Source: an uncultured Prevotellaceae bacterium (GTDB lineage: Bacteria > Bacteroidota > Bacteroidia > Bacteroidales > Bacteroidaceae). From it: a stretch of DNA of 64,000 nt. The position numbers were made by a program, and so were the translations under genes. Shown in pieces: positions 11,759-57,246 of this stretch. The notes beneath the pieces are model-generated. The model did not search any database and had not been told where the DNA came from. It saw only the letters and a list, made by a program, of their open reading frames with translations. The DNA is taken from positions 62,001 through 126,000 of the forward strand of contig CADADN010000003.1 in the NCBI GenBank assembly GCA_902786665.1, read 5' to 3'. Positions within the stretch are counted from its first letter, which is position 1; every line of letters starts with the position of its first letter.

Positions 11759-12934
11759 ATGTATACCCAAAACACTCCCGTTCACATTCGACTATGGAAC
11801 AAGGACTTCTGGCTTCTGGCCATTGCCAACTTGTTCTTGGGAATGGCTGTTAACGTCCAGATGGTGATGACGTTCCTCATGGCTGATTCTCCTTATGAGG
11901 CTTCAAAGGCGATGGGGGCTTTCGGCATTGGAATAATGGTGCTGGGGATGTCGGTATCGTTCCTTGTGGAAAGATATCGCAGAAACCATGTGTGTTGGTA
12001 TGCCATACTTGGCGTGGTGGCGTGCCTCGCCATTCCCATTTTTTATGACTTGCCCGTTGGTGGAATGGTTGGGGTGAGGTTGGCCACTGGTATTTGCTAC
12101 GGCTTGGCGGAGATGGTGTTATACAGCACGTTGGTGCTCGACACCTGTGAATCACATCAACGCACAGAAGCCAATTATGCCGTCACTTGGTTTGGAAGGA
12201 TTGCATTGGCTTTGGGGCCATTTTCCGCTCTTTTACTTGTCAGGTTTTTGGATGTCAGACTACTCTCTTGGATATCGGCGGGGGCCGCTGTGGTCGCTTT
12301 GTTGATGGTGATGATGGTGAGGTTCCCCTTCCGCTCTCCTGGTGACAATATCAAATTGGTGAGTCTGGATAGGTTCATCCTGCCTGCCTCTTGGGGGTTG
12401 ATGCTCAATCTCTTTTTCTTTTCCACTGTCTTGGGGTTGATTCTTTCCATAGAAATGGCGCATCTTTCTTTTTTCGCCTTGCTCATGGTGGGGTTCTTGT
12501 TGGCAATCGTGGCAGAGAAATACGTTTTTGTCAATGCGGAATTGATGAGTGAGGCAATCGCGGGGATGCTGTTGGTGGGATTCGCTTTGTTGCTTATGTT
12601 GGTGGAAATCGAACAGGCTTTTGTTACCATTCCCATTCTCATAGGACTTGGCTCGGGAATCATGGCGTCAAGATTCCTCCTGTTTTTCATCAAGTTGAGT
12701 GACCATTGCCAGCGTGGGACATCTCAAAGCTCTTTCTTCCTGGCGTGGGAGTTGGGGCTGGCATTGGGATTGTTCATGGGATTGGGAAGAAACGCTAATG
12801 CCGTAATCCCCTTGGTTGGAGAGTTGCCATCTTGGAAGGTGGTGGGAGTCATTGCTTTGTTTTTCGATGTGGCAGCATTATTGTTGTATGTGGCTTTTAC
12901 GCATCAATGGTATATGAAGCATAAAAACAGGTAA
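11759..12934 (+). CDS. MFS transporter
   Basis: 391-aa integral inner-membrane protein with about 11-12 hydrophobic helices, beginning near residues 17-40 (LLAIANLFLGMAVNVQMVMTFLM). The loop after the second helix, MVLGMSVSFLVERYRRNHVCW, resembles the MFS loop 2-3 signature. A polar central loop (MVRFPFRSPGDNIKLVSLDRF) separates the two six-helix halves. The N-terminus MYTQNTPVHIRLWNKDFWLLAIANLF is typical of Bacteroidetes MFS carriers. It probably shares the promoter of the HAD gene. The substrate cannot be deduced. Confidence 0.8.
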   Translation: MYTQNTPVHIRLWNKDFWLLAIANLFLGMAVNVQMVMTFLMADSPYEASKAMGAFGIGIMVLGMSVSFLVERYRRNHVCWYAILGVVACLAIPIFYDLPVGGMVGVRLATGICYGLAEMVLYSTLVLDTCESHQRTEANYAVTWFGRIALALGPFSALLLVRFLDVRLLSWISAGAAVVALLMVMMVRFPFRSPGDNIKLVSLDRFILPASWGLMLNLFFFSTVLGLILSIEMAHLSFFALLMVGFLLAIVAEKYVFVNAELMSEAIAGMLLVGFALLLMLVEIEQAFVTIPILIGLGSGIMASRFLLFFIKLSDHCQRGTSQSSFFLAWELGLALGLFMGLGRNANAVIPLVGELPSWKVVGVIALFFDVAALLLYVAFTHQWYMKHKNR

Positions 12935-34300: not shown

Positions 34301-34475
34301 CCAAAATGGCACCACGCAATCATATCTAAATTGGCATTACGCGAACATATCCAAAATGGCACCACGCAATCATATCTAAATTGACATTACGCGAACATAT
34401 ACAAAATGGCACTATGCGAACATATACAAAATGGCACTATGCGAACATATACAAAATGGCACTATGCGAACATAT
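34301..34475 (+). repeat. 25-bp tandem repeat, 7 units
   Basis: Seven exact-length 25-bp units begin at 34301, 34326, 34351, 34376, 34401, 34426 and 34451. Units 1 and 3 are identical, units 2 and 4 differ by one base, and units 5-7 are identical. Each unit contains AAAATGGCAC-like and GAACATAT-like cores. There is no protein-coding signal. Confidence 0.95.
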
Positions 34476-34586
34476 GTCCCTTTAACTCCCCTTTAACTCC
34501 CTTTTAACTTCTCTTTAACTCCTAAAAATCTCCCCTTTAACTCCCCTTTAACTCCCTTTTAACTTCTCTTTAACTCCTAAAAAAAC
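34476..34586 (+). repeat. 10-bp TTTAACTCC array with internal duplication
   Basis: CCCTTTAACT-type decamers. A block of about 45 bp ending in CTCCTAAAAA is present twice in a row. The pyrimidine-rich strand is the + strand. Confidence 0.9.
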
Positions 34587-34597
34587 TTCCCTTCAAC

Positions 34598-35263
34598 TTG
34601 AAAACAAAGCAGATTACATTAGCCAATGCTGATGGACTGATAAGACGACTTTACGAAACGGCATTTCCTGAAGGAGAACAGATTCCTTGGGATGACCTCA
34701 TGCGCCTCGTCGAGGATATGCCGCTCGATTTTACCGCATATTATGATGATGAAGAGGTGATGGAGCAGCGAGAGCAAAGCCAAGCTTGCTTGGAACTTGC
34801 CGAGTCGCGACAGAACTCGACCGAAGGTCGATTCATTGGGTTCACCATCGTCTATCTCAGACCGTCATACAATTGGTTCTGGTACTTTGCTGTCAGGGAG
34901 GAACTGCGAGGAAAAGGCTTTGGACAACAAATCCTGACACTGTTGATAGAGCGTTATAAAGAGCAAACTTGTGTGCTGGATATGGAAGCCGTAGAGCAAC
35001 AAATACCTTCAAAAAGGCTTGAAAGATTAAATGTCGATGGGCTGTCTGATTCTCAAATCTTGAACAATCTGGAACAGCGGAAACGTCGCCATGCCTTCTA
35101 TCTTCGCAACGGTTTTCGTGACACTTGTCTCTATCGCACCTACAACGATATCACCATGACCATCATGATGAGGGGGGAAGGTACGTTTACAATGAAGGAT
35201 TGGGACAAGTTGGTTGGTGAATTGAAAAGGTTTTGGTGGCCGGATGATATCTCGGAAAGCTAA
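34598..35263 (+). CDS. GNAT N-acetyltransferase carrying an in-frame repeat insert
   Basis: 221 aa from a TTG start immediately after the array; no ATG gives an intact first strand, so TTG is preferred. The acetyl-CoA loop is VREELRGKGFGQQIL (about 105-119). Residues 52-76 (from VMEQREQSQACL to NSTEGR) form an insertion between what should be adjacent strands, FTAYYDDEE and FIGFTIVY. The inserted DNA matches the palindromic element duplicated at 43951-44106. The acceptor substrate is unknown. The insert lies in a hairpin turn away from the acetyl-CoA loop, so activity could be kept. Confidence 0.8.
   Translation: MKTKQITLANADGLIRRLYETAFPEGEQIPWDDLMRLVEDMPLDFTAYYDDEEVMEQREQSQACLELAESRQNSTEGRFIGFTIVYLRPSYNWFWYFAVREELRGKGFGQQILTLLIERYKEQTCVLDMEAVEQQIPSKRLERLNVDGLSDSQILNNLEQRKRRHAFYLRNGFRDTCLYRTYNDITMTIMMRGEGTFTMKDWDKLVGELKRFWWPDDISES
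34769..34805 (+). repeat. palindromic element inside the GNAT coding sequence
   Basis: CGAGAGCAAAGCCAAGCTTG continuing CTTGG, then GCCGAGT, matches the core of the element at 43951-44106 with few changes, in the same reading frame (REQSQACL). Confidence 0.75.
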
Positions 35264-43937: not shown

Positions 43938-43950
43938 AATATATAAATTT

Positions 43951-44106
43951 GACTATCGTCTTATTCCTCCTCACTCGGCAGAGCCCAAGCAAGCTTGGCT
44001 CTGCTCTCGTTCGTTCGTCATTTGACTGTCGTCTTATTCCTCCTCACTCGGCAGCACTCGGCAGAGCCCAAGCAAGCTTGGCTCTGCTCTCGTTCGTTCG
44101 TCATTT
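43951..44106 (-). repeat. tandemly duplicated palindromic element
   Basis: Copy A is 43951-44023 (73 bp). Copy B is 44024-44106 (83 bp), identical except for one base and an extra 10 bp (a second ACTCGGCAGC). The core is an imperfect palindrome, CAGAGCC-(11)-GGCTCTG. Read on the minus strand, each copy opens with ATGACGAACGAACGAGAGC and encodes MTNEREQSQACLGSAE. In copy A the next codon is TGA. In copy B the 10-bp insertion shifts the frame past that stop. Confidence 0.92.
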
Positions 44107-44605
44107 CATCACCGTGTTTGTCATATTGCTTGCGTTTGCCGGTCGGTGGTTCCGTCAAGGTTATCCTCACCACGGCTGTCCGTTCCAGGCTCCGTTCAAT
44201 GGCACCATCGAAAGCATCCATGTGGTGAGGAAGAAAACGCTGGCAGATGGCTCTCATCCCTTCAATCTTCTCTGTCCTGTCCGTTACAATCTCTGCTTTG
44301 CCCATAGCCATGGCCGAGCGGTACTGGAGGGTGAAACTCCCATCTTTCGGTCCTATGGTTGGGGCGCCTTTGGTCACGGCAGACAATGCGACGATAGGAC
44401 TATGGGCCATGCAATCCATTTTCTCGCCCTCCAATGCACCGTGGAAGTAGAAGGTCTTCTCATCTGTACGTGCCAAAGACAGGGGTACGCCGTATGGCTT
44501 GCCGTCCGGTCTCGTGAAACTAACCGTGATATAGGGAGCCTTATCAAAGACCTCCAATGCGAATGCCGCATCCATTTCTCTACTCTTTTTTCTCATATGT
44601 ACCAT
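44018..44605 (-). CDS. NimA-like pyridoxamine-phosphate-oxidase-fold protein with repeat-derived tail
   Basis: 195 aa from ATG 44605 (Met at 44596 is an alternative). The frame is open to 44689, but that would overlap the flavodoxin gene upstream. It is a split-barrel FMN/heme-binding fold resembling 5-nitroimidazole resistance (Nim) proteins: MRKKSREMDAAFALEVFDKAPYITVSFTRPDGKPYGVPLSLA, TFYFHGALEGEKMDCM, FTLQYRSAMAMGKAEIV. The natural protein probably ends near YDKHGDE. The last 28 residues (MTNEREQSQACL to NKTTVK) are encoded by copy B of the palindromic element, and the stop is at its junction with copy A. It would reduce or bind small nitro- or flavin-linked compounds. Confidence 0.8.
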   Translation of the reverse strand: MVHMRKKSREMDAAFALEVFDKAPYITVSFTRPDGKPYGVPLSLARTDEKTFYFHGALEGEKMDCMAHSPIVALSAVTKGAPTIGPKDGSFTLQYRSAMAMGKAEIVTDRTEKIEGMRAICQRFLPHHMDAFDGAIERSLERTAVVRITLTEPPTGKRKQYDKHGDEMTNEREQSQACLGSAECCRVRRNKTTVK

Positions 44606-44658
44606 GGTAAAATCAACATAATTCAAGTTCCGCATATACTCAACTTGCGGGAGTTGAG

Positions 44659-45231
44659 TCAATATAACTTTTGTATCGCCTTCCGGCATTTTTTCTTGTC
44701 TTTATCAGTCAGTGTGGGATGCATCACTGTGCCGCCGCGCTCGATGGTCTTTACGATTTTGAAGCCAGCATAGCGGCCAATCTCCTTCATGGCACGGATG
44801 GCTCCCCGCGACTGGTTCATCCAGATGTTGAACGGCCATGGTGTGGTGCAGGTACTGACGAGAATGCACCTCTTGCCCTTCATCAGCGGTTCAGGAAAAC
44901 GTGGCGTGTCGCGCATCATTCCGTATACCTGCCGGTCAAACATCAGTTTCATCTGACCAGGGATGTTTCCCCAATAGCAGGGTGCACCCATGATAATGGC
45001 ATCGGCATCCTGCATCATTCCAAGCACCCGTTGGGAATCATCCTCTGCGAGCACGCACCTGACTCTCGTCCTGCAGGCCATGCAGCCGGTGCAGGGTTTC
45101 ACGCTCAGGTCGTTGGTGTACACCGTTTCAACCTTGTCGCCATATTTTTCCGCCTCTTCACGCATGATGCCAAGCATCTGGGCTATCAGTCCCTTTTTCC
45201 TGGGGCTGCCATTGATGATAAGGATATTCAT
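44659..45231 (-). CDS. flavodoxin-fold NAD(P)H-dependent oxidoreductase
   Basis: 190 aa. N-terminal FMN phosphate loop INGSPRKKGLIAQM (5-18). Cysteine cluster PCTGCMACRTRVRC (47-60), as in iron-sulfur flavoprotein-like reductases. GAPCYWGNIPGQMKLMFDR (near 82-100) is the second flavin loop. It probably moves electrons from NAD(P)H or ferredoxin to small molecules. It heads the minus-strand run ending with GH78. It is similar in type to the protein at 54322-55023. Confidence 0.88.
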   Translation of the reverse strand: MNILIINGSPRKKGLIAQMLGIMREEAEKYGDKVETVYTNDLSVKPCTGCMACRTRVRCVLAEDDSQRVLGMMQDADAIIMGAPCYWGNIPGQMKLMFDRQVYGMMRDTPRFPEPLMKGKRCILVSTCTTPWPFNIWMNQSRGAIRAMKEIGRYAGFKIVKTIERGGTVMHPTLTDKDKKKCRKAIQKLY

Positions 45232-56629: not shown

Positions 56630-57246
56630 TTGAGCACTGCTTTCACGTTGGTCACCATGTTCTTGTGTGCTTCGTCTTCTTTGGTGAGCGTTGAGGTGAG
56701 GACGATGTCGCCTGCCTTGTCTTTGGTGGAGAAGGTGCCGGAATAGATGATGTCACTGTCGAATATCAGGGTGGCTTCGACGAACACCTTGTACGTTCCC
56801 TTGGGCACGGCCTTGCCTGCCTGGTCGGTGAAGTCCCATGTGAAGGTCTGTGTGCCGTCGGCTTGCGGGGTGGCTCCCGTGAAGGCATCCAACTGCTGGT
56901 CGGTCTGTTCTGCGGCTTTGGAGGATTTCACCCATGTGGGCACACAGGCGGGGCGCTTGACGTAGCCACGCATAGGCTCCTCGCCGGGGCGCGTGCGGCC
57001 CTTGGTGGTGTATGAGGTGACGAAGAGCGTCTTCACGACATCGCCCTTGTCGTTCTCTATCCATACGGCATATTGGTTAGAACCAGGACCTGCCTGACGT
57101 TGGTAGTCGAAGGACACTTCAAGGCTCTTGGCTTTTCTTGCTTGCGACTGCTCTTGTGCATCCGATGACTTGATGCCAAGGACAATGACGGGCACTGACA
57201 GTAACATGGCTGCAAGAATGGCGATAAATAACTTCTTTTGTCTCAT
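56626..57246 (-). CDS. exported DUF2271 protein
   Basis: 206 aa with an N-terminal signal or anchor (KKLFIAILAAMLLSVPVIVLG). A linker DAQEQSQARKAKS follows, then a DUF2271 domain: VSFDYQRQAGPGSNQYAVWIENDKGDVVKTLFVTSYTTKGR, PTWVKSS, DAFTGATPQADGTQTFTWDFTD and PKGTYKVFVEATLIFDSDIIYSG. The family is often found beside PepSY/flavin-transfer genes, suggesting envelope redox, but function is unknown. First gene of the minus-strand run down to the esterase. The linker DNA bears a faint likeness to the palindromic element. Confidence 0.82.
   Translation of the reverse strand: MRQKKLFIAILAAMLLSVPVIVLGIKSSDAQEQSQARKAKSLEVSFDYQRQAGPGSNQYAVWIENDKGDVVKTLFVTSYTTKGRTRPGEEPMRGYVKRPACVPTWVKSSKAAEQTDQQLDAFTGATPQADGTQTFTWDFTDQAGKAVPKGTYKVFVEATLIFDSDIIYSGTFSTKDKAGDIVLTSTLTKEDEAHKNMVTNVKAVLK

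Follow-up and report, generated by a model that had tools for sequence, protein, structure and literature searches.

Coding palindromes are best known from Rickettsia, whose palindromic elements of ~150 bp are dispersed, encode a conserved peptide and lie in frame in unrelated genes (PMC10969869). The accessible part of that review treats similar protein evolution in other prokaryotes as a conjecture only (PMC10969869). Protein-coding palindromic repeats of Wolbachia and Methanocaldococcus jannaschii, likened here by title, are coding palindromes outside Rickettsia (PMC2996958). The PARCEL repeats are also palindromic and coding but, as presented in the available part of the same source, form tandem amphipathic domains mainly in membrane proteins (PMC2996958), whereas the element described below occurs as single insertions into enzymes. 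The enterobacterial intragenic repeats RU-1, RU-2 and RU-3 are likewise small and mobile and keep the open reading frame (ORF) inside genes; they measure 103–168 bp, and the accessible text on them does not report a single dominant phase (PMC2759123). REP elements with their RAYT (TnpA-REP) transposases are a further point of comparison, being dispersed, hairpin-forming repeats that are mostly outside genes and partly tandem.

Here we describe a large family of repeats in Bacteroidales, starting from copies in a 64,000-nucleotide stretch of an uncultured Prevotellaceae genome (the window, meaning the whole stretch of DNA analysed). The repeat is very probably a mobile element of Bacteroidales that is short, structured and non-autonomous, analogous to the Rickettsia palindromic elements. 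A preliminary description of the window had suggested this likeness, and the behavior of the element supports it: the palindromic repeat is dispersed in coding and non-coding DNA, lies in frame in unrelated genes (26 host clusters) and, for three hosts, is missing from the majority of orthologues. The likeness to the Rickettsia elements, as far as the available part of PMC10969869 describes them, is one of description and not of sequence: the element here is 73–75 nt long and found in Bacteroidales, has one dominant phase, a covarying stem with conserved tandem GA mismatches, and AA boundaries. Unlike REP elements, it is a longer, two-hairpin unit that is repeatedly in frame in genes, and the loci examined have no adjacent Y1 gene. 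Searches of the openly accessible literature, a scope outside which most subscription journals lie, returned no description of such an element in Bacteroidales or of its peptide; the absence is weak evidence.

Copies of the element in the window

The element core occurs three times in the window and not at all in 100 shuffles. The copies and their host genes are as follows.

34598–35263, plus strand: host gene 1, a GNAT acetyltransferase of 221 aa (Pfam Acetyltransf_1, 5.1e-08; Acetyltransf_7, 6.4e-08)
34757–34829, plus strand: palindromic element in the GNAT gene, 73 nt, encoding VMEQREQSQACLELAESRQNSTEG; its boundaries are shared with most of 86 copies
43951–44023, minus strand: the 73-nt tandem copy B, arranged head to tail with copy A (repeat families D1/D2)
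44024–44106, minus strand: the 83-nt tandem copy A, which contains an internal duplication of 10 nt (repeat families D1/D2 and end sequences)
44018–44689, minus strand: host gene 2, a NimA-like pyridoxamine 5'-phosphate oxidase-fold protein of 223 aa (Pfam Pyridox_ox_2, 3.1e-17)

The 73/83-bp tandem duplication reported in the preliminary description is real: 52 nt are identical at a spacing of 83 and 35 nt match at 97% at a spacing of 73, with a tandem-repeat score of 231 for positions 43947–44106. Counted from the preceding AA, copies A and B both terminate in GTC, followed by AA. Read on the minus strand, the 83-nt copy A encodes the final 28 residues, MTNEREQSQACLGSAECCRVRRNKTTVK, of the ORF at 44018–44689, as had been proposed; to judge from the sequence, this C-terminus of the NimA-like protein is element-derived. 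Copy B is not part of a long ORF in the EQSQACL frame and carries the hairpin CAGAGCC/GGCTCTG. The copy in the GNAT gene, previously recognized as a 37-nt core (34769–34805), is present but not limited to that core. It is a complete 73-nt element within an insert of 75 nt and 25 residues (34757–34831), the last two bases of which (GA, 34830–34831) follow the element and are AA in the relative G049. The GNAT and NimA-like genes hold the element in the same orientation and frame, as first noted.

A fainter likeness, in a DUF2271 linker (QEQSQARKAKS, window position 57124), is a resemblance of peptide without the element in the DNA; neither hairpin nor element arms were seen there, and it was rejected as a copy. 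Separately, the region upstream of the GNAT gene (34302–34598) contains two tandem arrays, one of 25-bp units (CAAAATGGCACTACGCGAACATATA) and one of 11-bp units (CCCTTTAACTC).

Empty and filled insertion sites

The window's GNAT protein was compared with 19 same-genus loci (L113–L131), of which 18 gave alignment rows that span the insertion site. All 25 residues are missing from 17 of these 18 orthologues, and the remaining one (G049, the nearest relative in the set, 94% identical) is filled. Locus L116 is interrupted by a stop; in the alignment its upstream ORF spans the site with 25 residues fewer, so that this locus too seems to lack the insert. An ancient conserved protein motif or domain, spread via ordinary gene duplication or fusion, might account for a near-identical peptide that recurs in many proteins, mostly in the same frame. 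However, the orthologues without the repeat do not keep the residues, and the GNAT segment is therefore not an ancient part of its family; more generally, most examined orthologues of the GNAT protein, the NimA-like protein and a second host family described below lack the segment. We consider an ancient motif very improbable, and further points against it arise from the census and the base pairing given in later sections.

The segment had been placed between two predicted beta-strands. This placement agrees with the alignment (DFTAYYDDE / FIGFTIVY) but is unconfirmed by a model: structure prediction without an alignment gave a mean pLDDT of 39.8, too poor to place the insert, and the case for a loop position is based on alignments. 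A comparison of the GNAT protein with solved structures gave no match at E 0.01. From the alignments, copies of the element probably occupy loop positions in their host proteins.

The GNAT gene also contains a second lineage-restricted insert, at window positions ~34986–35056 (residues ~141–163), which by eye is not a copy of the element described here. A different insert occupies that place in G063 (L114), and L122 has an 11-residue insert elsewhere.

The GNAT result extends to a second host, a 201-aa protein with no Pfam match at E 0.001. It is filled in five genomes (L066, L147, L157, L160 and L171) and is empty, without the residues, at 20 places, which were picked from a longer search listing because the gap was visible there. 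The empty site in L404 reads GAATGGGAAATCTACTC, and the filled site in L160 reads GAATGGGAA-AT...GGTC-AAATCTACTC. In L066, which belongs to the window's own genome, the insert is displaced by ~2 codons with the frame kept, and would most simply be a second, independent insertion into the same place. Two empty versions of this gene (L401 and L402) occur beside the filled L066 in the window's genome, which is consistent with the contamination of that genome.

For the NimA-like protein, 23 of 28 orthologues terminate in a common K(Y/W)(G/Q)RM and a short tail (longer in one), and three have other endings. The other two (L384 of G019 and L368 of G127) have, by eye, decayed element-like DNA at the place of the C-terminus, interrupted by a stop or in a different frame. 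A yak-rumen Prevotella record (L252) carries an element tail that resembles the window's, and two genomes (L152 and L168) have a copy close to the C-terminus of a related oxidase-fold protein. On this comparison, the C-terminus looks like a recurrent insertion place. The interrupted host proteins probably still work, given their intact frames and retained Pfam domain matches.

Dispersal across genomes and host proteins

The element family is wider than the three window copies from which it was first recognized. With at most one mismatch, the core has 75 matches in the window's genome (44 forward, 31 reverse; reversed-pattern control, 0). The search in related genomes that the preliminary description had proposed revealed a dispersed family with coding and non-coding copies and at least one match in 58 of 150 same-genus genomes, a count that includes the window's own. 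The matches listed in a scan of named genomes extend across Bacteroidales, with records labelled, among others, Prevotella, Bacteroidaceae, Alistipes, Muribaculaceae, Paludibacteraceae, Prolixibacteraceae and Marinifilaceae.

At the protein level, a search at E 0.01 with the 27-residue element peptide matched 135 of 398 same-genus genomes. Under a permissive score, the peptide occurs in 44 distinct ORFs, counted from stop to stop and no shorter than 140 aa, in some of them at the ORF end only. The hosts include four kinds of GNAT protein, a LytTR response regulator, pyridoxamine-oxidase-fold proteins, a phosphatidylglycerol lysyltransferase-type domain and a tetrapyrrole methylase-like protein (the last with a match just below the Pfam cut-off). 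Most core copies nevertheless seem to lie outside genes: under a strict test, 8 of 162 evaluated copies are inside genes and 154 fail (28 more were too near an end), which again speaks against an ancient protein motif.

Since the window's genome is fragmented and contaminated (9.67% contamination), as many of the compared genomes are fragmented and MAG-like, and several copies lie near contig ends, an artefact of MAG assembly or binning has to be weighed. Yet separate assemblies have the same insertion at the same codon, a coding copy (L472) is present in the single-contig genome G117 and, among the matches listed, the core occurs in two records not labelled as MAGs, Prevotella sp. khp7 and Proteiniphilum acetatigenes DSM 18083. 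An artefact is thus scarcely credible as the source of the family, and a dispersed genomic element remains the preferred reading.

Among the matches listed, the core was also seen in L259 and L330, from one MAG (GH39) labelled Candidatus Delongbacteria, outside Bacteroidota; these may reflect misbinning or transfer. Many of the non-gene copies (L020, L026, L302 and others) are flanked by arrays of the 7-mer (ATTGAAA)n, also in Proteiniphilum acetatigenes, and the element seems to sit within these arrays.

Reading frame within genes

Because a peptide search favors one frame, copies were also sought by a DNA pattern, which lies in the 3' arm, derives from the subfamily that occurs in genes and matches in 58 of 398 genomes. 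Nearly all listed places were fetched, giving 93 distinct copies, 7 of which were too near an end; one of the 86 left contains an N, so that 85 entered the frame census. A copy was called coding by the summed codon scores of both flanks, a test that the window's own GNAT copy (L112) fails.

By this measure, 43 of the 85 copies are coding: 34 in frame +0 (the EQREQSQACL frame), five in −0, two in +1, one in −1 and one in +2, so that nine lie in frames other than +0; some of the +0 calls (for example L177, L186 and L493) depend mainly on one flank. Counted by host cluster (n = 26), the frames are +0 in 18, −0 in four, +1 in two, −1 in one and +2 in one, with one −0 copy (L487) sharing its cluster with two +0 copies. 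A stricter two-sided test, which misses known coding copies including the window's GNAT copy, places 28 of the 86 copies inside genes (+0, 24; +1, 2; −0, 2). Among the eight core-pattern copies inside genes, six are in the EQSQACL frame and two in another; the core pattern misses copies with different stem tips.

The bias toward +0 does not come from stop codons alone, because three other frames are also mostly open: in the same 85 copies, the frame is open in 76 for −1, 68 for +0, 66 for −0, 57 for +2, 24 for +1 and 3 for −2. Frame +0 thus makes up 68 of 294 open frame-copies (~23%), as against 18 of 26 host clusters. Neither does the supply of targets explain the bias, since the [GC]AA target is in codon phase at 12,208 of 37,095 sense sites. 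Of the six frames, +0 gives the most hydrophilic peptide (mean GRAVY −1.46), and the bias probably reflects survival of the best-tolerated phase and peptide. The +0 frame is interrupted by a stop in ten of 31 non-coding 73-nt copies, a further point against an ancient protein motif.

A covarying hairpin

For the structure alignment, 55 of the 86 copies were hand-picked in register, a choice that favors the structure. Over 25 pairs in these 55 copies, 93.5% of cells are paired, 19 of the 25 pairs show double changes and there are 163 double-change cells; none of the five measures is attained in any of 500 shuffles, and pairing drops to 23–42% in slid controls. In all 85 N-free copies (79 distinct sequences), pairing is 93.0% for coding copies (the 43 census copies plus 11 assigned by hand, some of them, such as L149, L175 and L188, weakly) and 83.7% for non-coding copies. 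Three tandem GA/GA sites are conserved in 44, 45 and 52 of the 55 copies, and the stem tips vary in step (CAAGC/GCTTG, GATGC/GCATC, GGAGC/GCTCC). Four base pairs make up the 3' mini-hairpin of the 73-nt subfamily. That of the common intergenic form has 3 bp, and this form includes GCGAAGC, a DNA hairpin of unusual stability.

Single-sequence DNA-fold z-scores are unexceptional (GNAT copy, +0.37; intergenic consensus, −0.91; copy A, −1.07; copy B, −2.57), and the structure claim therefore depends on the covariation. Because base pairs covary, selection has acted on a nucleic-acid hairpin and not solely on the peptide, which an ancient protein motif does not account for.

The pairing is kept in both coding and non-coding copies, and the NimA-like copy lies at a gene end, as might be expected of a functional RNA motif (terminator-like, stability or regulatory) that is selected in transcripts and has coding copies as by-products. 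Against such a motif stand the patchy presence among relatives, the empty sites, the AA boundaries and the tandem arrays, and an Rfam search of four loci returned a single match at E 0.55, taken as chance. An RNA motif is in our view improbable, and a mobile element with a selected hairpin is the better account.

Insertion boundaries and proposed mobilization

AA is present on both sides of the element in 63 of 86 copies. In 19 of these 63, bases 1–2 of the element equal bases 3–4 of the 3' flank (shuffled mean 7.1; largest 15 in 2,000), a count that kinship inflates. This match is compatible with either a short AANN duplication or pairing of the outer arm to the target. Since the target bases differ from the element bases in the GNAT copy and in the filled second-host sites L147, L157 and L171, the comparison favors a similarity-guided choice of target over a strict 4-bp duplication. 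In a comparison with a MITE of a DDE transposon, for which terminal inverted repeats and a target duplication of fixed length would be expected, columns 1–2 of the element pair with columns 59–60 inside the hairpin and not with the far end.

Spread as a REP-like sequence by a Bacteroidetes-type TnpA-REP (RAYT) Y1 transposase would specify the mobile-element reading and not replace it. The element is palindromic, dispersed and partly tandem, and a Y1_Tnp match is present in 88 of 150 genomes. There is also a precedent in the Bacteroidetes TnpA-REP subclass 2.6, whose genes, according to the accessible part of the source, have atypical secondary structures on their flanks, copies of which occur elsewhere (PMC6006769). 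Against it, a first scan of 36 Y1-transposase loci, by a method that detects the element in 23 of 30 control loci, found no element, and a structural scan of 56 loci (53 places, three of them twice; reversed control, 0), which covered part of the Y1_Tnp matches listed and detects 65 of 86 known copies, missing about a quarter, found no convincing one. A weak match in L439 bears no resemblance to the element and was set aside. REP elements have a GTAG or CGTC tag at the hairpin foot, in the available part of the source (PMC3733652), whereas inspection of the consensus of 55 copies revealed neither tag at its ends. We regard such a RAYT transposase as a possible but doubtful mobilizer.

Our preferred reading remains a non-autonomous mobile element. 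The ~71–75-nt unit forms one long imperfect hairpin, its stem segments split by the three tandem GA/GA mismatches, with a bulged inner stem and mostly a CTTG loop, followed by the mini-hairpin, usually with a GAA loop. It inserts at AA dinucleotides and leaves AA on both sides, and the 73-nt subfamily, by adding 75 nt, keeps the reading frame. Movement would probably depend on an enzyme that works in trans and recognizes the strand in its folded form. Within genes, copies survive mainly in one orientation and phase, encoding the very hydrophilic xEQREQSQACLxSAESRQxSTEGQ, probably in loops, and at termini. The internal guide at IS200/IS605 ends is a model for target choice by base-pairing. A more specific and unlikely version is that a single-strand DNA hairpin moves passively, that columns 59–60 read the AANN target and that the 75-nt, frame-keeping subfamily is shaped for coding spread in one phase, where its product would be a surface peptide that hosts tolerate.

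If the hairpin-guided reading is true, nearly the same 25-residue loop has been added repeatedly to Bacteroidales proteins. Pairs of filled and empty orthologues allow one to ask which protein positions accept such segments, why one phase wins and what moves the elements. For annotators, a 25-residue block of the EQREQSQACL type should be read as a mobile insert and not as a domain.

The same inner core occurs with other outer arms, complementary by eye in several cases, at L056, L065, L008, L097, L105, L106 and L237. One such other-arm subfamily encodes KAAIEREQSQACL-type peptides in the EQSQACL frame.
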